From contig NZ_JALPSC010000002.1 of the NCBI RefSeq assembly GCF_023217965.1, positions 868,001 to 932,000 of the forward strand: 64,000 bases of DNA. The letters run 5' to 3'. The notes under the pieces were generated by a model. It had not been told where the DNA came from. It saw only the letters and a program-made list of their open reading frames with translations, and did not search any database. Positions 1,821 to 57,890 of this stretch are shown one piece after another. The position numbers and the translations under genes are program-made. Positions within the stretch are counted from its first letter, which is position 1. Each line of letters opens with the position of its first letter. This DNA comes from Prevotella sp. E13-27. GTDB taxonomy: Bacteria; Bacteroidota; Bacteroidia; Bacteroidales; Bacteroidaceae.

Positions 1821-1861
1821 TTAGCTATACCTTATTATATATTTTCAATAGATTTGTCATG

Positions 1862-1869
1862 CAAAAGTA
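1862..1869 (-). promoter_or_regulatory. -7 box for cstA
   Basis: The minus strand reads TACTTTTG, matching the Bacteroidota TAnnTTTG element, about 40 nt upstream of the cstA start. No convincing -33 element was found at the usual spacing. Confidence 0.4.
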
Positions 1870-1910
1870 ATTAAATATTTTGAAATTATGAGCAGAGAAT
1901 TATGAAATAA

Positions 1911-1941
1911 TTGCATTTTAACGATAAAATAAGTAATTTTG
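1911..1941 (+). promoter_or_regulatory. Promoter of the GHL10 gene
   Basis: TTG at 1911-1913, then 20 bp, then TAATTTTG at 1934-1941. This is an exact Bacteroidota -33/-7 arrangement. The transcript would begin around 1946-1950, which rules out the ATG at 1943 and supports the ATG at 1958 as the start. Confidence 0.7.
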
Positions 1942-1957
1942 CATGCAAATTCATGTT

Positions 1958-3610
1958 ATGAAAAAGTTTTTCACTCTTTTTATGTTTCTGCTTGCTCTTT
2001 CTCTAAGCCAGAAAGTCAAGGCAGACAATTTCCTCAATCAGGTTTCACCAAAGCACGAGATAAGAGCCGTATGGCTTACTACCATAGGAGGCATAGACTG
2101 GCCCCACAGCTATAACGAGACGAGCCAGAAGGCTGAACTATGCAGGATTCTTGACGATCTTCAGAGAGCAGGAATAAACCTTGTCTTCCTACAGTCACGA
2201 GTAAGAGGCACCACAATTTACCCCTCAGCACTTGAACCTTGGGACGGATGCATAACAGGACATCCAGGCAAGGCGCCAAATTACGACCCTCTGAAGTTTG
2301 CTATAGATGAGTGCCACAAGCGAGGCATGCAGCTACATGCGTGGGTGGTGACCATCCCCATTGGCAAATGGCAAAAGCTGGGATGCGCCACATTAAGGAA
2401 GAAGCATCCGAAGATGGTCATAAAGATTGGCGAAGACGGATACATGAATCCTGAGCGCCCTGAGACAGCCGACTATCTTGTGAGCTGTTGCAGGGAGATT
2501 GTAAGGAACTACGATGTTGACGGCATACACCTCGACTATATCCGCTATCCAGAGACGTGGAAGGGCAAGCCCAGCAAGGATATTGCAAGAGCGAACATCA
2601 CTCGTATAGTTAGAGAAATACGCAAAGACATAAACATCTACAAGCCTTGGCTGATGTTCAGTTGCTCACCAATAGGCAAGCATGACGACCTGACACGCTA
2701 CAGCTCAAACGGATGGAATGCTCGCAAAAGGGTCTTTCAGGATGCACAGCAATGGCTGAAGGACGGACTCATGGATGCTGTCTTCCCCATGATGTACTTC
2801 CGTGATAATAATTTCTTTCCATTTGTCTTAGATTGGAAAGAGCGTTCCTATGGACGTATAGTCGTACCTGGTCTTGGAATATATTTCCTCGACCCAAGGG
2901 AAGGAAAATGGGAAGCCATAGATGTGGAACGCCAGATGAACATGATAAGAGAGAACGGGCTGGGACATTGCTTCTTCCGTTCGAAGTTCCTCACAGACAA
3001 TTGCAAAGGTATCTACGACTTCACAAGGGGCTTCAACTCTACCCCATCGCTGATACCACCCATGTGGTGGAAATCGTCAAAGAAGCCTTCTTCACCACTT
3101 TGGCTTGAAGTGGAAAATGACTCTCTGCTGAGATGGGCTAAGGCAGATGGCGACATAGTATATAATGTGTATGCGTCAAAGGAATTTCCTGTTGATGTGA
3201 ACAAAGCATCGAACTTGGTTAAGACTCGCTTCACTTCCAACTCTATTCTTATAGACAGAAGAACAAGCCTGAACTATGCTGTAACAGTACAAGACAGATA
3301 CGGAATGGAGAGCGAGCCAGTACAGCTTAGCGCATCGAGAGTGAAGAAGGATGTTGAAGAGAAAGGAAAAGCTGCTGTCACTATGGTTAGTAATGAATTT
3401 GTTCTCCCCATAAAGCCATCGACCATAGATGCCGACTTCATAATAATCGAGACCCTACAGGGGGCTGCCGTAAAGGTGGTGTCATATAAGAAGAACAAGA
3501 TTTCTGTTTCCGATCTGCCAGAAGGCATGTATCAATGGAGAACACTCGGACGCAAGGGGCGCAACCACAGAATGGGATTCTTCACTATTGACAGACGACA
3601 CAGAATCTAA
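1958..3610 (+). CDS. GHL10/DUF187-type glycosidase with C-terminal Fn3-like module
   Basis: This is a secreted protein of about 550 residues with signal peptide MKKFFTLFMFLLALSLSQKVKA. The catalytic (beta/alpha)8 part spans roughly residues 30-360 and begins with the family pattern EIRAVWLTTIGGIDWP. It also contains DGIHLDYIRYP, typical of glycosyl-hydrolase-like family 10 (YngK-type) proteins. A fibronectin-III-like beta sandwich follows (about 370-450), then a beta-rich tail. Family members cleave polysaccharide or peptidoglycan-type glycans; the substrate here is unknown. The start was moved from 1943 to 1958 because the promoter -7 box ends at 1941 and a signal peptide begins at 1958. Confidence 0.85.
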   Translation: MKKFFTLFMFLLALSLSQKVKADNFLNQVSPKHEIRAVWLTTIGGIDWPHSYNETSQKAELCRILDDLQRAGINLVFLQSRVRGTTIYPSALEPWDGCITGHPGKAPNYDPLKFAIDECHKRGMQLHAWVVTIPIGKWQKLGCATLRKKHPKMVIKIGEDGYMNPERPETADYLVSCCREIVRNYDVDGIHLDYIRYPETWKGKPSKDIARANITRIVREIRKDINIYKPWLMFSCSPIGKHDDLTRYSSNGWNARKRVFQDAQQWLKDGLMDAVFPMMYFRDNNFFPFVLDWKERSYGRIVVPGLGIYFLDPREGKWEAIDVERQMNMIRENGLGHCFFRSKFLTDNCKGIYDFTRGFNSTPSLIPPMWWKSSKKPSSPLWLEVENDSLLRWAKADGDIVYNVYASKEFPVDVNKASNLVKTRFTSNSILIDRRTSLNYAVTVQDRYGMESEPVQLSASRVKKDVEEKGKAAVTMVSNEFVLPIKPSTIDADFIIIETLQGAAVKVVSYKKNKISVSDLPEGMYQWRTLGRKGRNHRMGFFTIDRRHRI

Positions 3611-14298: not shown

Positions 14299-15528
14299 AT
14301 GAAAAAAAACATTATTTCTTTAATTGCATTATTGCCCACCATACTTTGGGCACAGTCATTCGACTTTGACTTGACAAAGCCTCAACCCATTTACAACGAC
14401 CAAGATGGATTTGGCTACGACATTCTTCCTGCACCTAACAAAAAGGCACCTGCAGAACCATTTTATTTCTCTGTAAAAGTTCCTGATGGCAACTACACAG
14501 TAAAAGTTGTGCTCGGAGGAAAGAAAAACAGTAATACAACTGTAAGAGCTGAAGGAAGAAGACTGCTTATTGACAACGTGAATACGAAGAAAGCAAAGGA
14601 AACTATTGAATACTCTTTCACCGTCAACAAGCGTTCGCCAATGATTGATAGTAAGACAAAGGTTAAAATCAAAGAACGTGAAAAGACATATCTTGCATGG
14701 GATGACAAACTTACACTTGAGTTCAATGGTGATATGCCTGCAGTAAAAAGTATTCATATTGAGAAAGCCGACGTTCCAACAATCTACTTGTGCGGAAACT
14801 CAACTGTAGTTGACCAAAACAATGAGCCTTGGGCTTCATGGGGACAGATGATTACACGTTGGTTTGGACCAGAGGTGGCTATCTCTAATCATGCAGAGAG
14901 TGGATTGACAGCACGCACTTTCATTGGTTCATACCGTCTTGATAAAATTCTAACTACACTTAAGAAAGGTGACTATGTCTTTGTCGAGTTTGGTCATAAT
15001 GATGAGAAAGAGCATCGTCCAGGCGACGGAGCATGGTATCATTATCAATATCAATTAAAGATCTTTATCGATCAAGTACGTGCGAAGGGTGCTGAGATAG
15101 TCTTCTGTACTCCTACACAGCGTCGTCAGTTCAATGCAGACGGCAAAAGCATCAGAAATACCCATGGCGACTTTCCTGCTGCAATGAAGATGGTTGCAGA
15201 GAAAGAGAATGTTCCGCTTATTGATTTGAATAAAATGACAACAGATTTGTACATCGCAGTAGGACCAGAAGACTCTAAGCGCATGCTTGTTCACTATCCG
15301 AAAGAGATGTATGGCAGAGAACTTGCTGACAATACTCATTTTAACCCATTTGGAGCATACGAAGTGGCAAAATGCGTTGTTATGGGAATGAAACAACTTA
15401 ATCTTCCTATTATCAAGTATCTACGCAACGATTGGGTTGACTTCAATCCTTCTGCACCTGATGATTGGAAAACATTTAAATGGGCACCTTCAAGAATTGT
15501 AGAGATAGTAAAGCCTGACGGCAACTAA
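14299..15528 (+). CDS. Rhamnogalacturonan acetylesterase-type SGNH hydrolase (CE12) with N-terminal beta domain
   Basis: This 409-residue protein has signal peptide MKKNIISLIALLPTILWAQS. Residues 20-150 form a beta-rich domain, probably carbohydrate-binding. The esterase domain has the nucleophile in YLCGNSTVVDQ (Ser168; GNS instead of the usual GDS), the oxyanion motif EFGHNDEKEH and the catalytic DNTHFNPFG. CE12 enzymes remove acetyl groups from rhamnogalacturonan I. Only 20 bp separate it from uvrA. The GH106 rhamnosidase lies downstream, and the two would act on the same pectin, but IS copy 1 has split them. Before insertion the gap was about 72 bp. Confidence 0.88.
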   Translation: MKKNIISLIALLPTILWAQSFDFDLTKPQPIYNDQDGFGYDILPAPNKKAPAEPFYFSVKVPDGNYTVKVVLGGKKNSNTTVRAEGRRLLIDNVNTKKAKETIEYSFTVNKRSPMIDSKTKVKIKEREKTYLAWDDKLTLEFNGDMPAVKSIHIEKADVPTIYLCGNSTVVDQNNEPWASWGQMITRWFGPEVAISNHAESGLTARTFIGSYRLDKILTTLKKGDYVFVEFGHNDEKEHRPGDGAWYHYQYQLKIFIDQVRAKGAEIVFCTPTQRRQFNADGKSIRNTHGDFPAAMKMVAEKENVPLIDLNKMTTDLYIAVGPEDSKRMLVHYPKEMYGRELADNTHFNPFGAYEVAKCVVMGMKQLNLPIIKYLRNDWVDFNPSAPDDWKTFKWAPSRIVEIVKPDGN

Positions 15529-15561
15529 AACGACAAGTCTAGCATATCCATTCTAAATGAC

Positions 15562-16872
15562 CACTACTGTCCGGTTAAATTTCACCAAAGCGAAAGTTGG
15601 CGGTCATCTTCCGGATTTTGATTAATAATTGGTTTGTCAAAAAGTTCATTCAGCGGAGTCCTCTCAAAGAGAACTTGGCCGATGACATTAGAGAATATGT
15701 AAAGATTTTGTTCGATATGATACATCTTCAGAGCAATAATAAGCAGCAGGTAGTCACAGATGGCAATCCATATCTGTGTGAAGACTGCGTTTTGGGACGT
15801 CCCATAGAACGTCTTGATGTGCAGGTGCTGCTTGATCCATTTGAAGAACGTTTCGATAGTCCAGCGCTCTCGGTACAGTTCCGCAATGGTAATTGCTTCA
15901 AGGGTGAAGTCATTCGTCAGGAATCGATACACTACGTTCTGCGCAAAGTCCTCATAGACGACCAGACGCAACAAATCAGGGTACTTCTTGGCTGTAAAGA
16001 GACCAGTAAGACTGATGGACTCGTCAGAGATGACGCCAGTCTGCCTGTCAACCTCTCTTGCCTCGAATACGGAATATTTCATGTTGTCCTTTGCTCTGGT
16101 TACAAAGTAAGCCTTCTGCTGTTGGAAGAGACGGAACAGACGGTCAAAGTCCACATAGCCTTTATCCATCAGATAGTAAGCCCCTGCTTCTACAGGCAAG
16201 CTGTCCATAGCCTGAGTATCATGCACATTGCCAGGAGTAAGCATGATGAAGTTGGGTATGTTGTTCTTTACATCAATCAAAGTGTGCATCTTGAAAGCAC
16301 CTTTGTCATGATGGAACTTCGCCCATGGACAGAGATGCAGACACAGGTTGATGGTACTGCTGTCAAAGGCATACACCATATTGTCAATTCCCAACCGATA
16401 GTATTCATCTTTATACAGGACTTTAGCCCTCTCGACAAGTACCATTGCGTAGTCCTGATAGATACGCCAGTCCTTCTTCTCGTTCATGTCGGCGAGAGTG
16501 GACTTGGGCATCACCTTCAGACCGGCATGATACAACTTGGAGTTGAAAGCAGTCAACTGAGCCTCTATGCTACGAAGGCTTGCGCTGCTGGTCAGCTGAG
16601 CATAACTCATGACAAGGAACTGGTCACGGCAAGTGAATCGTCTTGCATGAAAATCCCCTCTATATCTGTCAATACATTTCCTGAGCTCGTAGTCAGGGAT
16701 GAGAGACATCAGTTGCGAGAATACAGTATTTCCGGCATTCATATCCTGTGCTATCTTATATATGAGACAGTACAAAGATAAAAAATCAAATCGGAAAATT
16801 TTTAAATCGCTGTATCTCATTGAAATTTAAACATTTAATTAACGTTCGGAAAAATTTAACCGGACACTAGTG
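15562..16872 (-). mobile_element. IS4-family insertion sequence, copy 1 (1311 bp)
   Basis: The ends are inverted repeats: CACTACTGTCCGGTTAAA at the left and, on the other strand, CACTAGTGTCCGGTTAAA at the right (one mismatch). A 9-bp target duplication CTAAATGAC flanks it at 15553-15561 and 16873-16881. It holds one transposase gene on the minus strand. It has landed between the CE12 esterase and GH106 rhamnosidase genes, against their direction of transcription. Confidence 0.95.
15582..16820 (-). CDS. IS4-family DDE transposase (copy 1)
   Basis: This 412-residue transposase cuts and joins the element's ends. The catalytic Asp residues are probably in YAFDSSTINLC and YYLMDKGYVDFD. The IS4 signature Y-x2-R-x3-E-x6-K is exact in YRERWTIETFFKWIK. 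The gene fills almost the whole element. Its translation is the same as that of copy 2 at 56480-57718, indicating recent transposition or ongoing homogenisation. There is no frameshift, so it is likely functional. Confidence 0.95.
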   Translation of the reverse strand: MRYSDLKIFRFDFLSLYCLIYKIAQDMNAGNTVFSQLMSLIPDYELRKCIDRYRGDFHARRFTCRDQFLVMSYAQLTSSASLRSIEAQLTAFNSKLYHAGLKVMPKSTLADMNEKKDWRIYQDYAMVLVERAKVLYKDEYYRLGIDNMVYAFDSSTINLCLHLCPWAKFHHDKGAFKMHTLIDVKNNIPNFIMLTPGNVHDTQAMDSLPVEAGAYYLMDKGYVDFDRLFRLFQQQKAYFVTRAKDNMKYSVFEAREVDRQTGVISDESISLTGLFTAKKYPDLLRLVVYEDFAQNVVYRFLTNDFTLEAITIAELYRERWTIETFFKWIKQHLHIKTFYGTSQNAVFTQIWIAICDYLLLIIALKMYHIEQNLYIFSNVIGQVLFERTPLNELFDKPIINQNPEDDRQLSLW

Positions 16873-16920
16873 CTAAATGACAATTGTTTAACAACAAAAA
16901 CAAACGCTACGAATAGAATC

Positions 16921-19590
16921 ATGAAAAAAATATGGCACACCATAGTACTCTCAGTAGCTTTCTGCCAACTGTCAACTAACCAAGCCTTGTCACAGTCTTG
17001 GCCTACTCCTACCGAAGAGAGTAAACCAGGCACACGTTGGTGGTGGTTAGGCTCTGCTGTAGATAAAGAGAACCTAAAGTGGAATCTTAATGAATATGCA
17101 AATCATAACATAGGTGCTGTTGAGATTACTCCATTATACGGAGTACAGGGAAATCAGAAGAACAACATTGATTTCCTGTCTGACAAGTGGTTTGAAATGC
17201 TACGTTTCACACAGGAACAATGTAAAAAGAACGGCATTGAGATTGATATGGCTACTGGTACAGGTTGGCCATTTGGAGGTCCATGGGTACCACTAAAAGA
17301 GAGTGCATGCCGTGTTATATTCGTAGAAAAGACCATTGACAAAGATGGTGTTTGGACTACCGTGAATGGCTACAAGGGATTACAGCCAGATAAAGCAAGT
17401 ACAGAAGTCATTGACATTTCTCTGTCTGCGAAAGATGCGAAGAATGCTGAACTTGACAAGGTCATGCTCTATGCAGACGGTAAAGCCATAGATGTAACAT
17501 CATACGTAAAGGACAACAAACTGACTGTTGATAAAAGTAATCCACTTTTTTCCAACATCTCGCCATCAAATTCAATTAAGATAATAGCAGTATATATTAA
17601 ATATGGTGTGATGAAGGTTAAACGAGCTGCTCCTGGAGGAGAGGGCTTGGTTATCGATCATTTCAACCATAATGCAGTAGCTAATTACCTTCACCACATA
17701 GAAGAAGCATTTGAACGTACACATACTCCCTACCCTCATACTTTCTTCAATGATAGCTATGAGGTAAGCGAAGGAAACTGGACACCACTCCTTTTTAAAG
17801 AGTTTGAAAACAGACGTGGTTATAAACTTGAGGAACATCTTCCAGAACTAATTAGTCATGACGCTAAGATTCTATCCGACTATCGTGAGACTCTTGGAGA
17901 TCTTGTCCTCGAAAATTTTACCGAACAATGGACAGCATGGGCTCACGCACATGGAGCTATAACACGCAATCAGGCTCATGGGTCACCAGCAAACCTTATA
18001 GACTGTTACGCTGCTGTTGATATACCTGAGATTGAAGGATTCGGGCTCTCAGACTTTGGGATAAAAGGACTACGACAGGATCCTGGCAAGACGAGAAAGA
18101 ACGACAGCGACTTCTCAATGCTGAAATATGCCCCTTCTGCAGCACATATCACAGGCAAGCCATACACCTCAAGCGAGACCTTCACATGGCTTACTGAGCA
18201 TTTTCGTACTTCGTTATCACAACTGAAGCCAGACATTGACCTAATGTTCTGTGCTGGCGTAAACCACATGTTTTTTCATGGTACATGTTATTCACCAAAG
18301 AATGACACATGGCCAGGTTGGAAATTCTATGCTTCCATAGACATGAGTCCCACAAATTCAATCTGGAGAGACGCTCCATTCTTCATGGAGTATGTTGAGC
18401 GCTGCCAGAGTTTTCTACAAATGGGTCAGCCGGATAACGATTTCTTGGTCTATCTGCCTATCAGAGACATGTGGAAACAAAAGACAGGAAAATTGCTTAT
18501 GCAATTCTCTATCCATGCAATGGGTAAGCTTGCTCCAGACTTTATAAAAACAATCCTTGATATTGATAAAGCAGGCTTTGACTGCGACTATATATCGGAG
18601 AAATACATTCTATCAACGACCTATGTCAACGGTATGCTTCAAGCAGAAGCTGGAACTCGCTACAAAGGACTTATTATTCCTGGTAGCGGAGAGATGCCAG
18701 AGAATGTAAAACGTCACATAGACGAACTCATTGCAAAGGGTGCTAAGATAATTTATGGCACAGATAAGAAGGATATGGCTAAAGTAGCCAAACCAGAAGA
18801 GATGCGCACTAATTGCAGTCTTAAAACCATTCGCCGAAGCAATAATAATGGCTATCACTATTTCATTGCCAACTTATCACCAAATGATGTTCATCAGCGT
18901 GTTAAATTAGCTGTACCATATAAATCTGCTTTATGGTTCAATCCTCTCAATGGCAACATATACCAAGCAGATATCAACAGCGATGGCATAGACATATGCT
19001 TGCGAAGCGGTGAGTCAATAATACTTCAGACATTCAACGAAAGGATATTTCAGACACAAGATTCAGAGAAGAATGAAACAATTAGCCATAAAGAAATAAA
19101 ACTGAATGGTCCATGGACGCTATCGTTTGTAGACGAGAAGCCTGAAGTTAATGAATCATTTAAACTGAAGAAGACACAAACATGGGAAACACTAAGTGAA
19201 AGAGCTGGTATTACCATGGGTACAGGCGTTTATTCGACTAAGTTCAAGATGACAAAGAAAGACCTCAATAATGGAAAATGGAAGATTGATCTTGGCGATG
19301 TTCGCGAAAGTGCCCGTGTCTATATTAACGACAAGTTCATCGGATGCGCTTGGGCTGTACCATTCATCCTCGAAATTAATGATGAATTAAAAGCTGGCGA
19401 AAACGCCATACGTATAGAAGTAACCAATCTTCCTGCAAATCGCATAGCCGATCTTGACCGCAAAGGAATAAAATGGCGCAAAATGGAGGAAATCAATGTT
19501 GTAGATATAAACTACAAGAAAACTCTGTACGACACCTGGGAGCCAGTACCAAGTGGACTTGCCTCTGAAGTAAGGCTATTTAACGAATAA
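16921..19590 (+). CDS. GH106 alpha-L-rhamnosidase
   Basis: This 889-residue secreted glycosidase has signal peptide MKKIWHTIVLSVAFCQLSTNQALSQ. GH106 features are the opening PGTRWWWLGSAVDKENLKW, GAVEITPLYGVQGN and DMATGTGWPFGGPWV. A C-terminal beta-sandwich (about residues 740-880) resembles the jelly-roll of glycosidases. It should release terminal alpha-L-rhamnose from pectin or rhamnogalacturonan. The apparent longer ORF begins at a GTG inside the IS end (16870), so the native start is the ATG at 16921. The IS insertion 48 bp upstream probably separates it from the CE12 transcript. No replacement promoter was recognised. Confidence 0.88.
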   Translation: MKKIWHTIVLSVAFCQLSTNQALSQSWPTPTEESKPGTRWWWLGSAVDKENLKWNLNEYANHNIGAVEITPLYGVQGNQKNNIDFLSDKWFEMLRFTQEQCKKNGIEIDMATGTGWPFGGPWVPLKESACRVIFVEKTIDKDGVWTTVNGYKGLQPDKASTEVIDISLSAKDAKNAELDKVMLYADGKAIDVTSYVKDNKLTVDKSNPLFSNISPSNSIKIIAVYIKYGVMKVKRAAPGGEGLVIDHFNHNAVANYLHHIEEAFERTHTPYPHTFFNDSYEVSEGNWTPLLFKEFENRRGYKLEEHLPELISHDAKILSDYRETLGDLVLENFTEQWTAWAHAHGAITRNQAHGSPANLIDCYAAVDIPEIEGFGLSDFGIKGLRQDPGKTRKNDSDFSMLKYAPSAAHITGKPYTSSETFTWLTEHFRTSLSQLKPDIDLMFCAGVNHMFFHGTCYSPKNDTWPGWKFYASIDMSPTNSIWRDAPFFMEYVERCQSFLQMGQPDNDFLVYLPIRDMWKQKTGKLLMQFSIHAMGKLAPDFIKTILDIDKAGFDCDYISEKYILSTTYVNGMLQAEAGTRYKGLIIPGSGEMPENVKRHIDELIAKGAKIIYGTDKKDMAKVAKPEEMRTNCSLKTIRRSNNNGYHYFIANLSPNDVHQRVKLAVPYKSALWFNPLNGNIYQADINSDGIDICLRSGESIILQTFNERIFQTQDSEKNETISHKEIKLNGPWTLSFVDEKPEVNESFKLKKTQTWETLSERAGITMGTGVYSTKFKMTKKDLNNGKWKIDLGDVRESARVYINDKFIGCAWAVPFILEINDELKAGENAIRIEVTNLPANRIADLDRKGIKWRKMEEINVVDINYKKTLYDTWEPVPSGLASEVRLFNE

Positions 19591-47197: not shown

Positions 47198-47242
47198 ATG
47201 AAAACTACAGCCCTTGTGCTGACAATTACAATATATATATGA
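47198..47242 (+). CDS. 14-codon leader-like ORF coupled to the esterase gene
   Basis: ATG at 47198 opens MKTTALVLTITIYI, ending in a TGA that overlaps the esterase ATG (ATGA at 47239). It looks either like the start of a lost signal peptide or a translational-coupling leader. Evidence for translation is only the overlap. Confidence 0.25.
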   Translation: MKTTALVLTITIYI

Positions 47243-48756
47243 GAAAGACAATATTTACCATTCTGCTCCTGTCAATATCAGCGATGTCAGCATGGGCCTA
47301 TCAGAAAGAAAAAATCTACATTAACTCCGGCGGCAAGCAGCGCAACATACTTGTCTATACACCCGACGAACTGCCAGCAGGCAGTCCGCTCTTCATCACC
47401 ACTCATGGCATGGGCGGCAATTCAGAGAATCAGGCAGAGCACGACAGGATGTACGAACTTGTTGACACAGCCAAGTTCGTCATGGTCTATCCTCGCGCAG
47501 ATGGCGACTACTGGGATATTAGCGGCACTACAGACCAGAACTTCATCATCAAGGTTATCGACGAGATGGCAACACGCTACAAGATTGACCGTAAGCGCGT
47601 CTATTGGTCTGGCTTCTCCATGGGTTCAATGCTGTTGTTCCACTGCATGCCCAACATGCTTGACAAGATTGCTGCCTTTGCCCCCACCAGCGGAATACAG
47701 TTCAGTGAGGAGCCTTGGAAGAAATGTGCAAAGAAGGTGAATGTCATGGAGTGCATTGCCTATAACGACAATGCTTTCACATACAACAAATACAACATTC
47801 GCGGCTATATGGAGAATATGGCAAATATGAATCGCTATACTAAATACAAGAAGCAGTCGGGCTATCGCACCAAGAACGGCACGTCATGGTTCGACGGCGA
47901 CCGCGAACTGTGGCTCAATGAAAAGACTGGTCACGAGGTGGTGCTCTACTCCTACAATTATAGCGGTAAGGGGTCGCACACACCAGTTGCTGAGAACTCC
48001 TACGAAATATGGAACTGGTGCAAGCGGTTTACACTGAATCCTGATGCTCCAGGAAACTCCACACAAGAAGAGGCAGAGGTGGTTCATTACGACGCAACTG
48101 CCAAGAATGCATGGGTTGCCACTCCAACCAGTGGTATTCTGAGCGGGTCTGATATTACCTTCAATGGTGCAACAGTAACTATTGGAGCACCAGACGACGC
48201 TGTCACTTGGGCTTGGCATGCGGGCAACCAGGGGCTACTACCGTCGCAGATGCCCTCAACCGGCGGAACCATTGAGACACTCATCACATCGTTCTCCGAC
48301 ACTGAACCATACGGCGAACTACCCACTCATGGTGCTTTTCTGAAGATAGAACCTTCTACAGCCAGTAAAATTACCATCAGCGGCAAGGCTTCGGCAAACG
48401 CTGCACAGCCACTGGTATTCGTTGCTTGCCTGAATAACAACCCGCTATCCCCCGAGTCAGTAAAGATAACACCATGGGATAACGACGTGACACAATGGAC
48501 GTATGAGGTCGATGCAAACCATGTCTATTACTTCTTCCAACAGGCATACCCCGGACAACTCACAGCCTACCGCTTCACACTCCGGAGCATTTCGTTTGAG
48601 TGTAATGTGGAGGCATCGGTCACAGATTTGCATTATTCAAGAAATCAGCAGAATGTCATCTACGAACTTGACGGCATTCACCGTAACGACGTTCAACGTG
48701 GATTGAATATCGTGGTAACAGCCGGCGGCAGCATCAAGAAAATTCTCAGCAGATAG
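47239..48756 (+). CDS. Secreted CE1/PHB-depolymerase-like esterase with C-terminal beta module
   Basis: This 505-residue protein has signal peptide MRKTIFTILLLSISAMSAWA. The alpha/beta-hydrolase domain (about 20-270) contains FITTHGMGGN (oxyanion region) and the nucleophile elbow WSGFSMGS with Ser127. The His is probably in GKGSHTPVAENSYEIW. CE1-like enzymes release feruloyl or acetyl groups from plant polysaccharides. Residues about 285-505 form a beta-rich module of unknown class. It is 26 bp ahead of the GH27 gene and shares its transcript. Confidence 0.82.
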   Translation: MRKTIFTILLLSISAMSAWAYQKEKIYINSGGKQRNILVYTPDELPAGSPLFITTHGMGGNSENQAEHDRMYELVDTAKFVMVYPRADGDYWDISGTTDQNFIIKVIDEMATRYKIDRKRVYWSGFSMGSMLLFHCMPNMLDKIAAFAPTSGIQFSEEPWKKCAKKVNVMECIAYNDNAFTYNKYNIRGYMENMANMNRYTKYKKQSGYRTKNGTSWFDGDRELWLNEKTGHEVVLYSYNYSGKGSHTPVAENSYEIWNWCKRFTLNPDAPGNSTQEEAEVVHYDATAKNAWVATPTSGILSGSDITFNGATVTIGAPDDAVTWAWHAGNQGLLPSQMPSTGGTIETLITSFSDTEPYGELPTHGAFLKIEPSTASKITISGKASANAAQPLVFVACLNNNPLSPESVKITPWDNDVTQWTYEVDANHVYYFFQQAYPGQLTAYRFTLRSISFECNVEASVTDLHYSRNQQNVIYELDGIHRNDVQRGLNIVVTAGGSIKKILSR

Positions 48757-48781: not shown

Positions 48782-50518
48782 ATGAAAAAAAGACTGTTTA
48801 TAGCAGCAACATGCCTGACGGCGACAGTTAGCCTGATGGCACAGGGCGGTCCCACGATGGGCTGGAGTTCGTGGAATACCTACGGCGTGAACATCAGCGA
48901 CGCGCTCATCCGTCGGCAGGCAGACGCGATGGTATCAAAAGGATTGAAAGATGTGGGCTACAATCACATCAATATCGACGATGGCTTTTTGGGTGGACGC
49001 AATACGGAAACTGGCGAACTTATCATCCATCCCACACGTTTCCCCAACGGACTCAAACCCGTAGCCGACTACATCCATTCAAAGGGTCTTAAAGCAGGAA
49101 TCTACAGCGATGCCGGTGCAAACACATGCGGTAATATGTACAATGGCGATGTGCTCAGCGTGAATGTCGGACTCTACAACTACGACCAGCACGATGCCGA
49201 CTTCTACTTCAAGGAGTGCGGTTTCGACTTCATCAAGGTGGACTTCTGCGGCGGTGACGCTCCACAGAACACACAGCATCTGGCTCTCGACCCGCAAAAA
49301 CGCTACACCGCCATCAGCAACGCCATCAAAGATACCGGTCGAAACGATGTGCGACTGAACGTATGCCGCTGGGACTATCCCGGCACATGGGTTCACGACG
49401 TGGCATTCTCCTGGCGCACCACCCACGACATCTGGGACGGCTGGCCATCAGTGAAGGGTATTCTTGCTGAAAACCTATACATGAGTGCCTACAGCTACGA
49501 CGGCCGCTTCAACGACATGGACATGCTCGAGGTGGGACGCTCCATGACTACCGAGGAAGACAAGACCCACTTCGGCATGTGGTGTATCATGAATTCTCCA
49601 CTGCTCATAGGCTGCGACCTCGAAAACATCAAGACCACAACACTCAATCTGCTGAAAAACGAAGAACTGATAGCCCTCAATCAGGATCCGCTCTATCAGC
49701 AGGCATACATCGTAGCACTTTCCAACAGCTGTTACATTCTGGTGCGAGACATTGAAGAACTGAACGTCACCAAACGCGCCTTCGCCATCTACAATCCCGA
49801 CGATGCTTCCAAACAGGCAACCGTACGATTTGCCGACCTGTGCCTCGGCGGAAAGGTGAAGCTCCGCGACCTGTTCCAGAAGAAAGACCTGGGCGAGTTT
49901 TCCGACAGTTACAACTTAACCATCCCTGCCCACGGCACCCGTATCTACACCGCTGAAGGCGAGCAGCGGCTGGAGCGCACCCGCTACGAAGCCGAGACTG
50001 CCTACATCAGCAACTATCAGGAACTGAAAAACAATCAGGCAGAACATACAGGCATATATGAATATGCCGACTACTGCTCATCAGGACTGAAGGCAGGGTG
50101 GCTTGGCTACAACGAAAAGAACGACCTTGTTTGGCGCGATGTATATAGCAACGACGGAGGTGACTACAAACTTACCATCGCATATATCTCAGGTGAGAAC
50201 CGAAACATCCGCATTGACATCAATGGGAAGCGCGTCAATACAGTCAATGTCAACTCTGGCGGTTGGAGTACAGTGGCAAGAAAAACCATCACCATACACC
50301 TGGAGAAAGGGCGCAACACCATCCGCCTATCAAACAGCACCAACTGGATGCCCGACATCGACTACATCGACCTTGTGCCTGTGGCAACACCCGACGACAT
50401 CGGAGCGGTCAACGCAGACAAGCACCAGGATTCATACGCGTTCGACACAGCTGGCCGTCCCGCCACACAGGCAACACGACTCCGCATTATGAACGGAAAG
50501 AAAATGCTTGTACAATGA
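48782..50518 (+). CDS. GH27 alpha-galactosidase with CBM6/35-like module
   Basis: This 578-residue secreted enzyme removes terminal alpha-galactose, e.g. from galactomannan or arabinogalactan side chains. The signal peptide ends near LMAQGG. The GH27 barrel (about 24-390) opens GPTMGWSSWNTYGVNIS. The nucleophile is Asp154 in IKVDFCGGD and the acid/base Asp216 in SWRTTHDI. A jelly-roll module (about 400-535; YEAETAYISNYQE) follows. The final segment YAFDTAGRPA...IMNGKKMLVQ resembles the short C-terminal tails of exported Prevotella proteins. Terminator at 50567. Confidence 0.92.
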   Translation: MKKRLFIAATCLTATVSLMAQGGPTMGWSSWNTYGVNISDALIRRQADAMVSKGLKDVGYNHINIDDGFLGGRNTETGELIIHPTRFPNGLKPVADYIHSKGLKAGIYSDAGANTCGNMYNGDVLSVNVGLYNYDQHDADFYFKECGFDFIKVDFCGGDAPQNTQHLALDPQKRYTAISNAIKDTGRNDVRLNVCRWDYPGTWVHDVAFSWRTTHDIWDGWPSVKGILAENLYMSAYSYDGRFNDMDMLEVGRSMTTEEDKTHFGMWCIMNSPLLIGCDLENIKTTTLNLLKNEELIALNQDPLYQQAYIVALSNSCYILVRDIEELNVTKRAFAIYNPDDASKQATVRFADLCLGGKVKLRDLFQKKDLGEFSDSYNLTIPAHGTRIYTAEGEQRLERTRYEAETAYISNYQELKNNQAEHTGIYEYADYCSSGLKAGWLGYNEKNDLVWRDVYSNDGGDYKLTIAYISGENRNIRIDINGKRVNTVNVNSGGWSTVARKTITIHLEKGRNTIRLSNSTNWMPDIDYIDLVPVATPDDIGAVNADKHQDSYAFDTAGRPATQATRLRIMNGKKMLVQ

Positions 50519-50799: not shown

Positions 50800-51495
50800 T
50801 TATCCATTTCGATATTCGGCTGGTGTCATCCCCGTCTCGCGCTTGAAGAACTTGGAGAAGAACGAGGGATTAGGGAAGTTCAGCGACTCAGCGATCTGCC
50901 AGATGGGCAGGTCGCTGTATTTCAGTTGTAGTTTGGCCTGCTGGATGATGTGGCGATGAATCCATTGCATGACTGTCTGTCCGCTGACTTCCCGGATGAC
51001 GGATCCAAGATGGTTGGGTGTCAGGCAGAGATGGTCGGCATAGAAGGCGATGGCATGTTCACGAGCGGCATGCTCGTTGACGAGAATGGTAAAGCGATGA
51101 AAAATATCCTCCTGACGGCTGACGGGATGACGCTTCCTTTCTGCGTTTTCTTTATTATATATAAGGCGGAGTTCGGAGAGGAGCGCCGTTTGCAAGGCAC
51201 GGACAGAGGAATGTGACAGGGGCTGGCGCTTGACGGTATGCCAGAGCAGACGGAAATACTCGTCAGTAAGCTGCCAGTCGTCATCGTTCAAATGAAAAGT
51301 CGTACACTCCTTGAAAAGTGTCTCTTTTGGTAACTCCCGATAGGAGAAGGTCTGGATGTCGAACTCATCGTCCATCTCTTCAATTTCGAATACGGAGTCG
51401 GCTGACACAACAAGCAGCATACCTGTCTGTAAGTCATGCGGTTCCATATTGATAATGCTGTGAGCTTTAGTTTTTTTTGTTAAAATCAAACTCAT
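50800..51495 (-). CDS. AraC-family regulator, N-terminally shortened
   Basis: The frame gives 231 residues. The C-terminal DNA-binding region is intact: IAFYADHLCLTPNHLGSVIREVSGQTVMQWIHRHI, then IWQIAESLNFPNPSFFSKFFKRETGMTPAEYR. The sensing domain starts only at KAHSIINMEPHDLQTGMLLVV, so the first 30 or so residues normal for this group are missing. The apparent start (51495) falls in a DNA segment that is duplicated at 56347-56427; the ATG at 51447 is an alternative. It is divergent from the giant glycosidase gene and is its likely regulator, if still functional. Confidence 0.8.
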   Translation of the reverse strand: MSLILTKKTKAHSIINMEPHDLQTGMLLVVSADSVFEIEEMDDEFDIQTFSYRELPKETLFKECTTFHLNDDDWQLTDEYFRLLWHTVKRQPLSHSSVRALQTALLSELRLIYNKENAERKRHPVSRQEDIFHRFTILVNEHAAREHAIAFYADHLCLTPNHLGSVIREVSGQTVMQWIHRHIIQQAKLQLKYSDLPIWQIAESLNFPNPSFFSKFFKRETGMTPAEYRNG

Positions 51496-51553
51496 TCTGC
51501 ACGATAAATAAGAAAAATGGGTCTGTATTCAAGATTATTTTGTATTTTTGCAA
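51473..51553. repeat. Duplicated promoter segment, copy A
   Basis: About 80 bp are shared with 56347-56427, including TTTTTTGTTAAAA, ATTCTGCACGATAAAT, ATGGGTCTG and the -7-like TATTTTTGCAA. Copy A sits between the divergent AraC and glycosidase genes. Confidence 0.75.
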
Positions 51554-51577
51554 CAAGAATGGGCTTTTTTATCTTTG
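51547..51577 (+). promoter_or_regulatory. Promoter of the GH43-GH78 multidomain gene
   Basis: TTTG at 51547-51550, 19 bp, TATCTTTG at 51570-51577. This is an exact consensus, 52 bp before the start at 51630. A second -7-like box (TATTTTTG, 51543-51550) overlaps the -33 element. Confidence 0.65.
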
Positions 51578-51629
51578 CCTTGTCGTGAAGATTTTTGCCT
51601 CTTTTGCGGATTGTAAAACAAATGATAAT

Positions 51630-54600
51630 ATGATGAAACGACACCTAACAATTTTCTGCCTACTGGTCATGGCACTGAATCTGCAGGCTCGACAAGGGAA
51701 TAATATGAACAAGGACCTGCCTTTCAATCCCTTTGGCCATCCGCTGATTCCCGATATGGTGGCCGACCCCAGCGTTGTTGAGATTAATGGAATGTTCTAT
51801 TGCTATGTCACCACCGACGGCTACGGACAAGGGCTGGAAACGTCGGGTCCACCGGTGGTGTGGAAGTCTCGGGATTTCGTTAATTGGAGCTTCGATGGAA
51901 CCTATTTCCCACAGGCTGTGGGCGAGAAATACTGGGCACCTAGCAAACCCGTCTACAAGAACGGACATTGGTATATCTACCCTACGGTTAACGGCTATAT
52001 GTATCCTGCCGTGAGCGATAGTCACGAAGGACCGTTTCACTTAGCAAAGGGCAATCGCTTTACGATAGAGAACCGTCTGCTGGAAAAAGACAGTGTCTGT
52101 GCCATCGACACCGAGATGTTCATCGACGATGACGGCACACCCTATGCCATCTGGGGACTCCGCAATGTGGCAAGGCTCAAGGACGACATGACAACCATCG
52201 ACACGCTTGTCACCATCGACACCCGCAAAAAGCAATATACCGAGGGGCCCATCTTCTTCAAACGAAAGGGCATCTACTACTATCTCTACACTCAGATGGC
52301 GCTGGAACGCTATGAATACTACTATCAGATGAGCCGTGAGAGTCCATTCGGTCCATACGAGACACCTCGGCAGGATGTGGTCTGCACCACCGACGCTGAT
52401 ACAGGTGTGTTCGGGCCTGGACATGGTTGCGTATTCCATCCTGAGGGCACTGACGACTACTATCTGGTGTTCTTGGAGTTCAGTCGCAACAGTACCAACA
52501 GGCAAATCTATGCCAACAAGTTGGAATTCAACGACGATGGTACCATCCGTCAGGTAAGGGTGACGCTCAACGGCGTTGGCGCTTTGCGACAGACGATGCG
52601 CACAAGACATTTGTTGCAGCCCGTACAGATGAGTGTTTCGTCGGTTGCAGAACCAGAAAGGGTTCCCTACAAATTGGACAAGCGCTGCCAGCGTACGGAG
52701 TATTTTGTGCCAGAGTTTGCTGTCGATGGCTCCAATGGGTCGCGATGGATGGCATCTTCTGCCGACACCACCGATTGCTGGCTGATGGCAGACTTAGGCA
52801 TGGTGCGCCGCATAGGTAACAGCAGTCTCGCCTTTGTCCGTCCCACAGCTGGTCATGCCTACAGGTTGGAAGGCTCTGTCGATGGAATCACATGGCAGAC
52901 ATGTGGCGGACACGATGACCTGCGCATCATGTCACCACACATTGACAGTATCAACCAGTCGTTCCGCTATCTGAGGGTACACATCACTCATGGTATTCGA
53001 GGCGTATGGGAATGGAAGATAGAGGAAGCGCAGACCGATGACTTTGCCCATGCCAAGTGGATTGCGTTGGAAGCTGACTCCACCATTCTGTTTCCCTACA
53101 TTCATCTGCTTAAAGCAAACAGTCCCGAAGGGCAATCGCTGAAAAGCTACCGTATGCCTGTCCTCAGCAAGACTTACCGAGTGAAAGGTCAGGTGAAGAG
53201 AGCATGGGTGGACATCTGTGGACTGGGACAATACGAGCTGTTTATCAACGGAGAGAAGATGGGCAATCATTTTCTGTCACCTGGCTGGACGATGTACAAC
53301 CGTGAACTGCTCTATAACGAGCTGGATGTCACACAAGCCTTGCAGCAAGCCAAGCACGGCAAGGTGGCCATTGAGGTGATGTTGGGAGGTGGCATGTACG
53401 ACATCAGCACCCGTGGTTATCACAAGATGGCTGGCTCCAGCGGTGCGCCGAAGCTGCTTTTCTGTCTGCATGTTGACTTTAAAGATGGTCAGCACAAGGA
53501 CTTTGTCAGCGATGCTACATGGAAGGCCCGTGAGAGTGGCATTCGTCATACAAGCATCTATAGCGGTGAGTGGCGCGATGCAACGCTCTTGGCCAAGCCG
53601 CATCCTGCCATCATTACCCATCCTCACTGGGATGTACAACTGGTTAAGCAACAGGCTGGCACCCATGTCAAGATACATCAAGAACTGCCAACGACTGAGA
53701 TAGCCCCTGGCATATACGACACACGACAGAACTGCTCAGGGATTGTCCGAATCAAAGTGAAGGGGAAACGGGGACAGACCATCCGTTTGCGTCCTGCCGA
53801 GATACTGAAAAACGGAGCCATATCACAAAAGAGCATGCCTGGCTATGAGTGGCAGTACACCCTCAGTGGCGATACCAAGGGCGAGACATGGCAGCCGCAG
53901 TTCTCCTACACGGGGTTCCGCTATGTGGAGGTAAGAGCCGACGAGGGTGTGGAACTACTGGAACTAACAGGACTGCACACGACGACCGATGCAGCGGAAG
54001 TAGGCAGCTTCGAGTGTAGCGATACGCTTTTCAACCGCATCCATACGCTCATCGACTGGGCCATACGCAGTAATCTTGTCAGCATCACCACAGACTGTCC
54101 AACCCGAGAGAAGCTGGGTTGGCAGGAGCAGAACCATCTGATGGCGCTCTCGATGATGTACCGTTATGACATACGCTCGCTGATGAACAAGATTGCCGAC
54201 GATCTGGCCGACTCTCAGCACGGTGACGGAGCCATCCCAACCATAGCGCCCGAGTACACGCAGTTTGAACTGGGCAGCGGCTTTGAGGACACACCCGAAT
54301 GGGGGGCATCGTTCATTCTCTGTCCTTGGTACACCTATCAGTGGTATGGCGACGACAGTGCCATGCAAAAGCACTATGAGGCCATGAAGCGCTATATCGC
54401 CTATCTTGGCTCTCGTGCCGAAGGTGGCATTCTCAACTACGGACTCGGCGACTGGTTTGACATAGGTCCGAAACGACCAGGCAAGGCGCAACTCACCAGT
54501 GTGGCACTCTCAGCAACTGCCATGTACTATTATGAGCTGACCGTGATGCAGCAGATAGCTCGTCATCTGGGGCGAAATGGCGATGCAGAAGCATTTGCCC

Positions 54601-56009
54601 GTACAGCTGAAAAGGTGAAGGAGGCCTTTGCCCGTCAGTTCTACAATGGCAGTGACAAGGTCTATGAGAATGGCAGCCAGACAGGACTGGCAATGGCTCT
54701 CTATACCGGCATCGCCGCCGATAGCCTGCGTCAGCGCACACTGGATGCCCTTGTGCACGATATTGAGCAGCGAAGCTATGCGCTGACAGCTGGCGATGTG
54801 GGCTTCCGCTACGTGGTGCAGGCTTTGCAGCAGAATGGGCGCAGCGATATCGTCTATCGGATGAACCGCAGTGACAGCATACCTGGCTACGCCTACCAAT
54901 TGAAGCAGGGAGCTACCGCCCTCACCGAAAGTTGGCAAGCCTACGACGACGTGTCGAACAACCACCTGATGTTGGGTCATCTGATGGAATGGCTCTATAG
55001 CGCAGTGGGAGGCATACGGCAAACCGACAACGCTTGGCGTCACATTGTCATTGCTCCGCAGATGGTGGGTGAAGTGACATGGGCAAAGACCTCTCTCTCC
55101 ACACACCGAGGAAAGGTATCCTGCCACTGGACGCGCGACATGGCGAGTGGGGAATGGACCATCAGCGTCTCTATCCCCGAAGGCTCTGACGCAGAACTGC
55201 ACCTGCCTGACGGCAGAACGGCAACTGTCGGTGCGGGCGAGCACAGCATTTCATCTCAACCTGTCCGCGAACGAGAACTGTGGATCAAGAATGGGCAACG
55301 AAACATCTATGGCGTGCTGAGCAGTCCGAACAATGGACAGGCAAAGCATCCCGTGGCCATCATTGCCCACGGATTCAATGGTACCCACGACTGGGGCCGG
55401 AATTATTTCAAGACCATGAGTGAGTTGGGCTATATGTGCTACACCTTCGACTTCCCCTGTGGTAGTACAGGAAGCCGAAGTGACAATAACACGATGAACA
55501 TGTCCATATTTGACGAGCAGAGCGATCTGGAAGCTATTGTCCGCCATTTCTGTTCACGTCCAGACGTGGATACGACCGATATCGTACTGATTGGAGAGAG
55601 TCAGGGAGGACTGGTTTCGGCATTGACGGCAACTGCCATGAGTCAGCAGACAAGCAAGCTGGTATTGGTTTTCCCTGCCCTGTGCATCCCCGACAATTGG
55701 AACAGTCGCTATCCTCACACCACCGACATCCCCGACACCACCCGCGTCTGGCAAGTACCCCTTGGCCGCCGATTCTTTATGGAGTTGCGCGACATGGACC
55801 CCTATAAGGCAGTGGAATCATACACCCGTCCCGTTCTCATCATTCATGGAGATGCCGACAACGTGGTACCGATAGACTACTCCCGCCGTGCCGTCAAACT
55901 TTACAAGGATGCCCGACTGAAAGTCATTCCCAAGGCTGGTCATGGTTTCAATCCACAGGACTTCCAAAAGTCGCTGGAGTGGATCCGGCAATTCCTAACA
56001 GATGAGTAG
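51630..56009 (+). CDS. Multidomain GH43 - F5/8C - GH78 - alpha/beta-hydrolase enzyme
   Basis: About 1459 residues with signal peptide MMKRHLTIFCLLVMALNLQA. Four modules can be read. GH43 spans about 30-340 with base Asp46, Asp160 and acid Glu205 (TEGPIFF). A discoidin/F5-8C-type carbohydrate-binding sandwich spans about 350-465 (FAVDGSNGSRWMASSADTT). A GH78 alpha-L-rhamnosidase spans about 470-1215, with DCPTREKLGWQEQNHLM at 822-838. An alpha/beta-hydrolase spans about 1222-1459, with GESQGG (Ser1324), HGDAD (Asp1408/1410) and His1438. It could remove arabinose or xylose, rhamnose and ester groups from one pectin substrate. The longer upstream frame precedes the promoter and is rejected. Confidence 0.88.
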   Translation: MMKRHLTIFCLLVMALNLQARQGNNMNKDLPFNPFGHPLIPDMVADPSVVEINGMFYCYVTTDGYGQGLETSGPPVVWKSRDFVNWSFDGTYFPQAVGEKYWAPSKPVYKNGHWYIYPTVNGYMYPAVSDSHEGPFHLAKGNRFTIENRLLEKDSVCAIDTEMFIDDDGTPYAIWGLRNVARLKDDMTTIDTLVTIDTRKKQYTEGPIFFKRKGIYYYLYTQMALERYEYYYQMSRESPFGPYETPRQDVVCTTDADTGVFGPGHGCVFHPEGTDDYYLVFLEFSRNSTNRQIYANKLEFNDDGTIRQVRVTLNGVGALRQTMRTRHLLQPVQMSVSSVAEPERVPYKLDKRCQRTEYFVPEFAVDGSNGSRWMASSADTTDCWLMADLGMVRRIGNSSLAFVRPTAGHAYRLEGSVDGITWQTCGGHDDLRIMSPHIDSINQSFRYLRVHITHGIRGVWEWKIEEAQTDDFAHAKWIALEADSTILFPYIHLLKANSPEGQSLKSYRMPVLSKTYRVKGQVKRAWVDICGLGQYELFINGEKMGNHFLSPGWTMYNRELLYNELDVTQALQQAKHGKVAIEVMLGGGMYDISTRGYHKMAGSSGAPKLLFCLHVDFKDGQHKDFVSDATWKARESGIRHTSIYSGEWRDATLLAKPHPAIITHPHWDVQLVKQQAGTHVKIHQELPTTEIAPGIYDTRQNCSGIVRIKVKGKRGQTIRLRPAEILKNGAISQKSMPGYEWQYTLSGDTKGETWQPQFSYTGFRYVEVRADEGVELLELTGLHTTTDAAEVGSFECSDTLFNRIHTLIDWAIRSNLVSITTDCPTREKLGWQEQNHLMALSMMYRYDIRSLMNKIADDLADSQHGDGAIPTIAPEYTQFELGSGFEDTPEWGASFILCPWYTYQWYGDDSAMQKHYEAMKRYIAYLGSRAEGGILNYGLGDWFDIGPKRPGKAQLTSVALSATAMYYYELTVMQQIARHLGRNGDAEAFARTAEKVKEAFARQFYNGSDKVYENGSQTGLAMALYTGIAADSLRQRTLDALVHDIEQRSYALTAGDVGFRYVVQALQQNGRSDIVYRMNRSDSIPGYAYQLKQGATALTESWQAYDDVSNNHLMLGHLMEWLYSAVGGIRQTDNAWRHIVIAPQMVGEVTWAKTSLSTHRGKVSCHWTRDMASGEWTISVSIPEGSDAELHLPDGRTATVGAGEHSISSQPVRERELWIKNGQRNIYGVLSSPNNGQAKHPVAIIAHGFNGTHDWGRNYFKTMSELGYMCYTFDFPCGSTGSRSDNNTMNMSIFDEQSDLEAIVRHFCSRPDVDTTDIVLIGESQGGLVSALTATAMSQQTSKLVLVFPALCIPDNWNSRYPHTTDIPDTTRVWQVPLGRRFFMELRDMDPYKAVESYTRPVLIIHGDADNVVPIDYSRRAVKLYKDARLKVIPKAGHGFNPQDFQKSLEWIRQFLTDE

Positions 56010-56427
56010 CAAGATAACAATTTCAGAAGAGGACGATAGAACTGTCCATTTACAATCTTGCATTATCTTTGACGAAAGGGGATTTGGTTGTGAAGCTATT
56101 TCATTTGTATGGCAATATGTCGGTTCAGATGTATTGCCATATAATTATGACCTTAACTTTGATTATTCTTTCAGTAAAAAGAGAATTTTCCGAAGTCAAA
56201 CAAATAATGACATTCAACCAAGTTTGGGTTTACTTTACCTTTTATATATATAAGATCATCTAAACTTAAACCTAAACTTACAAGGTTGAAATCCGGCTCT
56301 TTTCTTTTGATTGAAATAATAAAGATTAGATTCCAGTTTGACCTTGTTTTTTGTTAAAAGATTCTTATTCTGCACGATAAATGAGAATAATGGGTCTGAA
56401 TTCAAAGATTTATTTGTATATTTGCAA
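56010..56427. other. Gene-free stretch ending in promoter segment copy B
   Basis: No supportable gene. A short frame at 56002-56253 has no family features. The last 81 bp (56347-56427) repeat the segment at 51473-51553, including the -7 box TATATTTG at 56417-56424. IS copy 2 begins directly after it. Confidence 0.6.
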
Positions 56428-57738
56428 CACTAGTGTCCGGTTAAATTTTTCCGAACGTTAATTAAATGTTTAAATTTCAATGAGATACAGCGATTTAAAA
56501 ATTTTCCGATTTGATTTTTTATCTTTGTACTGTCTCATATATAAGATAGCACAGGATATGAATGCCGGAAATACTGTATTCTCGCAACTGATGTCTCTCA
56601 TCCCTGACTACGAGCTCAGGAAATGTATTGACAGATATAGAGGGGATTTTCATGCAAGACGATTCACTTGCCGTGACCAGTTCCTTGTCATGAGTTATGC
56701 TCAGCTGACCAGCAGCGCAAGCCTTCGTAGCATAGAGGCTCAGTTGACTGCTTTCAACTCCAAGTTGTATCATGCCGGTCTGAAGGTGATGCCCAAGTCC
56801 ACTCTCGCCGACATGAACGAGAAGAAGGACTGGCGTATCTATCAGGACTACGCAATGGTACTTGTCGAGAGGGCTAAAGTCCTGTATAAAGATGAATACT
56901 ATCGGTTGGGAATTGACAATATGGTGTATGCCTTTGACAGCAGTACCATCAACCTGTGTCTGCATCTCTGTCCATGGGCGAAGTTCCATCATGACAAAGG
57001 TGCTTTCAAGATGCACACTTTGATTGATGTAAAGAACAACATACCCAACTTCATCATGCTTACTCCTGGCAATGTGCATGATACTCAGGCTATGGACAGC
57101 TTGCCTGTAGAAGCAGGGGCTTACTATCTGATGGATAAAGGCTATGTGGACTTTGACCGTCTGTTCCGTCTCTTCCAACAGCAGAAGGCTTACTTTGTAA
57201 CCAGAGCAAAGGACAACATGAAATATTCCGTATTCGAGGCAAGAGAGGTTGACAGGCAGACTGGCGTCATCTCTGACGAGTCCATCAGTCTTACTGGTCT
57301 CTTTACAGCCAAGAAGTACCCTGATTTGTTGCGTCTGGTCGTCTATGAGGACTTTGCGCAGAACGTAGTGTATCGATTCCTGACGAATGACTTCACCCTT
57401 GAAGCAATTACCATTGCGGAACTGTACCGAGAGCGCTGGACTATCGAAACGTTCTTCAAATGGATCAAGCAGCACCTGCACATCAAGACGTTCTATGGGA
57501 CGTCCCAAAACGCAGTCTTCACACAGATATGGATTGCCATCTGTGACTACCTGCTGCTTATTATTGCTCTGAAGATGTATCATATCGAACAAAATCTTTA
57601 CATATTCTCTAATGTCATCGGCCAAGTTCTCTTTGAGAGGACTCCGCTGAATGAACTTTTTGACAAACCAATTATTAATCAAAATCCGGAAGATGACCGC
57701 CAACTTTCGCTTTGGTGAAATTTAACCGGACAGTAGTG
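56428..57738 (+). mobile_element. IS4-family insertion sequence, copy 2 (1311 bp)
   Basis: It has the same ends as copy 1 (CACTAGTGTCCGG left; CACTACTGTCCGG on the other strand at the right). The 9-bp target duplication TATTTGCAA lies at 56419-56427 and 57739-57747. The duplicated bases are part of a promoter -7 box, so the element has cut the promoter from its downstream DNA. Confidence 0.95.
56480..57718 (+). CDS. IS4-family DDE transposase (copy 2)
   Basis: This 412-residue transposase has the same translation as the gene in copy 1. The IS4 YREK signature (YRERWTIETFFKWIK) and both catalytic Asp regions are intact, and there is no frameshift. Being on the plus strand, it is inverted relative to copy 1. 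Confidence 0.95.
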   Translation: MRYSDLKIFRFDFLSLYCLIYKIAQDMNAGNTVFSQLMSLIPDYELRKCIDRYRGDFHARRFTCRDQFLVMSYAQLTSSASLRSIEAQLTAFNSKLYHAGLKVMPKSTLADMNEKKDWRIYQDYAMVLVERAKVLYKDEYYRLGIDNMVYAFDSSTINLCLHLCPWAKFHHDKGAFKMHTLIDVKNNIPNFIMLTPGNVHDTQAMDSLPVEAGAYYLMDKGYVDFDRLFRLFQQQKAYFVTRAKDNMKYSVFEAREVDRQTGVISDESISLTGLFTAKKYPDLLRLVVYEDFAQNVVYRFLTNDFTLEAITIAELYRERWTIETFFKWIKQHLHIKTFYGTSQNAVFTQIWIAICDYLLLIIALKMYHIEQNLYIFSNVIGQVLFERTPLNELFDKPIINQNPEDDRQLSLW

Positions 57739-57890
57739 TATTTGCAAAGCAAATGAGCCAAATGGGCAGAATGAGTCTAAAAAGAGATGCCAGTACTTTA
57801 CACCAACTCTATAAGTAGCTGATAATCAGCATTGTCTAGTCGCCGCGCAGGCAGCCGTCGAGGAGTAATTATCACTCTGATATAATTAAC

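Follow-up and report, generated by a model that had tools for sequence, protein, structure and literature searches.

A 64,000-nucleotide stretch of the genome of Prevotella sp. E13-27 (hereafter the window; contig NZ_JALPSC010000002.1, positions 868,001 to 932,000) contains one open reading frame (ORF) in which a GH43 glycoside hydrolase, a sandwich domain, a GH78 alpha-L-rhamnosidase and an esterase are joined. This raises the question whether the fusion is genuine and, if so, on which glycan such a protein would act. On balance we favour a secreted three-site exo-debranching enzyme of a Prevotella-like bacterium, acting on acylated side chains capped with arabinose (Ara) and rhamnose (Rha), whose esterase was added from a GH106-linked lineage to a GH43-sandwich-GH78 gene.

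Architecture and integrity of the four-module protein

The ORF extends from an ATG at 51630 (alternative start at 51633) to a TAG at 56009 without internal stop codon and is organized as follows:

51630..56009, + strand: ORF of the four-module protein, 1459 amino acids plus stop
51630..51692, + strand: signal-peptide-like start, residues 1-21, by eye from the translation; no lipobox Cys seen
51735..52547, + strand: GH43 module, residues 36-306 with D46, D160 and E205 (Pfam, alignment to 5msx, MAFFT)
52698..52991, + strand: F5/8 type C (CBM32-like) sandwich, residues 357-454 (Pfam; 5msx spans GH43 and sandwich)
53190..55232, + strand: GH78 alpha-L-rhamnosidase, residues 521-1201 by Pfam, with E827 and E1100 (Pfam, structure alignment, MAFFT)
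55257..55289, + strand: join of GH78 tail and esterase linker; GEHSISS ends at residue 1209, QPVRERELWIK comprises 1210-1220
55251..56006, + strand: esterase module, residues 1208-1459 as searched and folded, with S1324, D1410 and H1438 (Pfam, PDB alignments, fold comparison)

Pfam domains were counted only above the curated cut-offs, and on this basis the four modules and their order, proposed in an earlier note made by a model from the DNA letters, are upheld. The GH43 profile is matched over positions 2-288 of 288 by residues 36-306 (122.6 bits, cut-off 32.2) and the F5/8 type C profile PF00754 by residues 357-454 (38.4 bits, cut-off 28.2). All four GH78 domains exceed their cut-offs, namely the N-terminal (521-654), the ConA-like (695-771), the six-hairpin (790-1126, 312.4 bits) and the C-terminal domain (1128-1201), and alpha/beta-hydrolase families match within residues 1228-1449, with Hydrolase_4 at 50.8 bits. 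Residues 32-464 resemble the 459-residue chain of 5msx (E 8e-183), in which the catalytic acids are conserved but GH78 and esterase are absent. We take 5msx to be BT_3662, a GH43_34 alpha-L-arabinofuranosidase, so that the GH43 module would belong to subfamily 34. The sandwich domain may be a glycan binder or else a structural partner of GH43, with which it forms a single chain in 5msx.

The GH43 residues named in the earlier note, D46, D160 and E205, line up with the catalytic acids of 5msx and are conserved when the window protein is aligned to P0003-P0054 by MAFFT (D in 22/22, D in 23/24 and E in 23/23 of the rows with a residue present); we assume that they act as base, pKa modulator and acid. 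The GH78 region DCPTREKLGW, also named there, contains E827, which like E1100 (in GATALTESW) is Glu in all 53 rows. The two presumably serve as catalytic acid and base. Residue 835 beside this motif is a near-invariant Asn (52 of 53 rows) that is replaced by Ile and Val in two relatives treated below (L037 and L045, respectively). In the esterase S1324 (within GESQGG) and H1438 fit triad positions as had been proposed, but the acid is better assigned to Asp1410 than to the proposed Asp1408, because the fifth position of HGxxD, occupied by D1410, is Asp in five of five printed PDB alignments and the site of D1408 in only two of them; both residues are invariant across 35 close esterase homologues.

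Positions 51463-56056 are matched in the uncultured Prevotellaceae hRUG883 (L037) by a single alignment of 4594 nucleotides at 98.1%. A tblastn search over 116 loci detected the full-length protein in its own genome (L001) and in L037 (98%, residues 1-1459), and in Prevotella sp. UBA4339 (L038) residues 1-1107 match at 97%, followed by the contig end. The same order of modules was also retrieved as one full-length protein cluster (P0002, 97%, 208 member sequences). An assembly join between 53.0 and 55.3 kb, which the earlier note had considered, was rejected in view of the continuous alignment to L037 and of P0002. An origin of the esterase by read-through of a neighbouring gene found no support: seven of the 116 loci hold the esterase, but GH43-GH78 accompanies it only in L001 and L037, and ORFs inspected in six GH43-GH78 loci that lack the esterase (L039, L040, L041, L042, L044, L046) end after GH78. 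The ratio of nonsynonymous to synonymous substitution rates (dN/dS) in comparison with L037 is low in every module, with 0.05 for GH43, 0.20 for the sandwich, 0.18 for GH78 and 0.14 for the esterase, the last value deriving from six differences.

The rarity of the combination was assessed in a search with the window protein, from which the best 120 of 802 passing matches (7992 scored) were listed and to which the following counts refer. GH43 and GH78 occurred together in 23 clusters (P0002-P0024), and esterase domains were present in P0002 only. The clusters P0003-P0024, from Prevotella and Muribaculaceae relatives and uncharacterised according to their listing, likewise begin with GH43, sandwich and GH78 in this order and are up to 75% identical to the window protein, but a C-terminal esterase was found in 0 of the 22. 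One cluster (P0026) represents a GH78-esterase without GH43, GH78 is joined to GH35 in P0038, P0039 and P0041-P0045, and GH43-sandwich is joined to GH95 in P0056 and to GH43_C2 in P0069 and P0088. Modules are freely combined in this bacterial group, and in the window protein ordinary parts are put together in a rare way. The earlier note knew of no described enzyme of this order, and our limited search of the open literature found no paper describing the order GH43-sandwich-GH78-esterase. The added value is a link between esterase and rhamnosidase that spans two rhamnosidase families, the modules themselves being all of known kinds.

The esterase lineage and its rhamnosidase partners

A search with the esterase alone, covering proteins of 802-2553 amino acids at E 1e-20 or better, yielded 116 proteins, 81 of which contain esterase-type domains only. 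The glycoside hydrolase (GH) partners, counted by eye from precomputed Pfam annotation, are 28 GH106, 2 GH78, 2 GH53, 1 GH2, 1 GH10 and 1 GH43+GH51. Rhamnosidases of two unrelated families constitute 30 of the 35 GH-bearing proteins, a share that is inflated by the length limit, which drops short fusions such as the GH53-esterases of 592 and 618 amino acids (L208, L214). A survey of the genus without length limit (58 loci) identified 16 GH partners, of which 11 were GH106 (3 via Pfam, 7 via clustering and L172 via its tail), 3 GH53 and 2 GH43-only, the remaining partners being esterases or not individually scanned. Within the 28 GH106 proteins the esterase is placed on the C side in 16, on the N side in 11 and internally in one (P0260, a protein with an additional SGNH domain).

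The esterase module is 68-73% identical to that of GH106-esterase and GH106-esterase-GH43 proteins (P0242-P0254, L121, L169 and others). These resemble the window protein in the esterase, the linker and a preceding alpha-L-rhamnosidase, but the latter is GH106 instead of GH78 and the GH43 of L121 stands last and is exo-beta-1,3-galactanase-like. The linker QPVRERELWIK of the window protein resembles QPSVEKELWIK in the GH106 fusion of L169. Trees were built after exclusion of three matches of <200 residues (L213, two of L215), and a single clade of all rhamnosidase-linked esterases was rejected (p 1e-6) by a test that also omits the long branches L214, L216, L120, L119 and L212 and 10 of the 28 GH106 proteins. 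One clade of window and P0026 esterases was not rejected (p 0.06), and an independent origin of P0026 is therefore not established. In the genome to which the window belongs, which has three GH106 and two GH78 genes above cut-off, no second copy of this esterase was found at E 1e-40. We read the linker similarity as an esterase module passed between rhamnosidase genes; a common GH43-sandwich-GH78 gene would have gained, at its end, a member of the lineage travelling with GH106.

That one esterase lineage was fused repeatedly to two unrelated rhamnosidase families hints at its function, which would help to assign an esterase group without a clear substrate yet. Tentatively, the lineage may track alpha-L-rhamnosidase function rather than one family (GH106 at either end, GH78). 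This would imply a common ester-acylated or ester-shielded rhamnosyl motif in plant glycans that has yet to be described as the target of an enzyme. The window protein would then handle arabinose, rhamnose and ester in one chain, and close relatives would be reducing its gene to single modules.

The module agrees in fold, in size and in its Ser-Asp-His triad with feruloyl and cinnamoyl esterases of the Est1E/LJ0536 type (2wtm, 3pf8, 8skm, 7xri), which are, however, only 24-27% identical and whose solved chains are of single-domain size. Its fold is almost equally close to those of the lipase 7q4j and of PET46, and hydrolysis of hydroxycinnamoyl esters is predicted. A printed precedent for an esterase-rhamnosidase fusion is the CE15-GH106 protein OtCE15C, which likewise combines an esterase and an alpha-L-rhamnosidase family in one chain; here, however, the esterase is a CE15 uronoyl esterase, the rhamnosidase belongs to GH106 and not to GH78, and no GH43 is mentioned (PMC10807430). 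CE6-CE1 acetyl-feruloyl esterases from polysaccharide utilization loci of Bacteroidetes, fused catalytic modules like those considered here, showed measured intramolecular synergy; they differ in comprising two esterases, being xylan-directed and having no glycoside hydrolase (PMC7110780). Synergy may be presumed for the window protein, too.

Proposed action and substrate

In the enzyme that we propose, the GH43 module, being close to 5msx, would remove terminal arabinofuranose (Araf) and the GH78 module terminal alpha-L-rhamnose. The Est1E/LJ0536-type serine esterase at the C-terminus would clear an acyl group on or next to Ara or Rha, thereby unblocking one of them, and the sandwich domain may bind the glycan. 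Having all sites on one polypeptide would be of use on small side chains with heavy decoration. The sequence supports the debranching and de-esterifying role suggested by the earlier note, whose interpretation is thus upheld in part: the modules, their order and this role stand, and the catalytic Asp1408 gives way. Two genes upstream offer clues to the substrate:

47239..48756, + strand: feruloyl-esterase-like gene; 3 of 4 PDB matches named feruloyl esterase, no Pfam match
48782..50518, + strand: GH27 gene with CBM6/35-like end (domain search)

Over residues 19-266 the product of the first shares 85% identity with that of the gene directly upstream of GH106-esterase-GH43 in L121, and by eye similar genes precede such fusions in L175 and L176. 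In L173 a SusD gene is followed by GH106-esterase-GH43 and then by SGNH, GH115 and a GH43_C2 piece; in L171 and L174 a protein of SusD size was seen by eye directly before the fusion. The final GH43 of L121 matches 3nqh and then exo-beta-1,3-galactanases. Near GH43-GH78 genes, L044 has an SGNH gene with 40% identity to the one in L173, L041 has GH28 and GH2, and L042 has GH95. The neighbourhoods of esterase fusions and GH43-GH78 therefore indicate type II arabinogalactan or pectin side chains, and arabinosyl- and rhamnosyl-capped acylated chains of these kinds would most likely be the substrate. Between arabinogalactan and rhamnogalacturonan II (RG-II) the GH43 module cannot decide, because GH43_34 enzymes act on Araf of both gum arabic arabinogalactan and RG-II, BT_3662 acting on alpha-1,3-Araf of grape RG-II, according to PMC8939339. 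Expression of GH43_34 and GH78 on arabinogalactan, but from different loci, is reported in PMC11036162. If the three sites act on one side chain, the protein would be a ready tool for assigning blocking esters to individual rhamnosyl or arabinosyl residues in pectin or type II arabinogalactan.

It is possible, though we give it clearly less weight, that the same enzyme is directed specifically at rhamnogalacturonan (RG-I or RG-II), as the earlier note held, trimming Ara and Rha and removing feruloyl, acetyl or methyl esters of pectin. This agrees with the activity of BT_3662 on RG-II, given that we take 5msx to be this enzyme, and with GH28, GH2 and GH95 in L041 and L042. Both GH78 and GH106 occur in pectin-type loci with CE15, as PMC10807430 states. 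On the other hand, the window gene is accompanied by GH27, the sister GH106-esterase-GH43 fusions carry the exo-beta-1,3-galactanase-like GH43 and in L173 have a GH115 neighbour, and GH43_34 activity extends to gum arabic arabinogalactan (PMC8939339).

Unlikely, in our opinion, is a target in feruloylated arabinoxylan, debranched by esterase and GH43 with GH78 being incidental. The feruloyl-type fold, esterase relatives joined to GH10 (P0348) and GH43+GH51 (P0355) and the GH115 and GH43_C2 piece in L173 would be in line with it, but 28 GH106 and 2 GH78 stand against one GH10 among the 35 GH-bearing proteins, and an incidental rhamnosidase would not need the conserved GH78 residues and the dN/dS of 0.18. 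Small acylated plant glycosides, i.e., flavonol or phenylethanoid rhamnosides with hydroxycinnamate esters and no polysaccharide, are a still more improbable target. Rhamnosidases acting on such compounds are known, and chlorogenic-acid and cinnamoyl esterases are among the closest folds that have been solved; however, the SusD directly before GH106-esterase-GH43 in L173 (by eye, a protein of the same size in L171 and L174) points to glycan uptake systems, and neither the sandwich nor an arabinofuranosidase-type GH43 would be required.

Recent history of the gene

Two further features flank the gene:

51463..51629, + strand: leader common to L037, L038 and L045 (locus alignments)
56427-57739: insertion sequence with 29-nt inverted ends (domain and repeat search)

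The AraC-type gene at 50800-51495 (- strand) lacks about 63 N-terminal residues that are present in L217, L219 and L220 (284-285 amino acids), whose intact versions stand beside another hydrolase gene. Similarity to the intact loci ends at 51463-51465, where the leader starts; from these alignments, the AraC-type gene appears to have been shortened at its start by the segment carrying the four-module gene.

In L045, a single contig of a metagenome-assembled genome close to L037 (synonymous divergence, dS, of GH78 0.01), leader and signal peptide run directly into GH78 (1043-3541). About residue 35 is joined to 472 within a 10-nt imperfect match (CTTTGGCCAT / CTTTGCCCAT, by eye), and the esterase is gone after QPVREQ, the tail SSQPVREQ resembling a scar of the esterase linker. 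Between its GH78 and that of L037 there are 5 synonymous and 15 nonsynonymous changes (dN/dS 0.87). The GH78 of L045 also has 11 private residues, compared with 3 each in the window and L037, which suggests relaxed selection. Functional module shuffling between strains was set aside, since this dN/dS makes decay after deletion the simpler reading. The next gene of L045 also appears, by eye, to be cut and fused into another. P0122 joins residues 1-45 to 1204 and P0025 is a shortened form, both known solely from protein records; a P0025-like form occurs on the contig L047. All four forms (L045, P0122, L047, P0025) are in frame and retain the signal peptide and one module, and, provided that the contigs are correct, they look like products of deletion in the four-module gene. 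That the fusion itself is an assembly artefact or a decaying gene can practically be dismissed: L045 lacks GH43-sandwich and esterase with breaks at module borders, and the gene flanks vary among contigs, but the complete ORF is found again in L037 (98%) and as P0002 with its 208 members, and dN/dS against L037 is low across the modules.

A promoter-like unit of ~100-200 nt occurs twice around the gene (51463-51570 and 56215-56432, about 80-86% alike) and at 88-93% before unrelated genes in loci of several other genomes of the genus. The idea that a repeated leader feeds module swapping found no support, as the genome of the window contains the leader only once in full, besides a partial copy at 88% (56364-56429) and a match of 29 nt. 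The insertion sequence carries a DDE_Tnp_1/DUF4372 transposase gene (412 amino acids), present in two copies (56427-57739 and 15582-16820) with identical Pfam scores. The second copy is flanked by a gene for an SGNH hydrolase and a GH106 gene that lacks this esterase (14299-19590).

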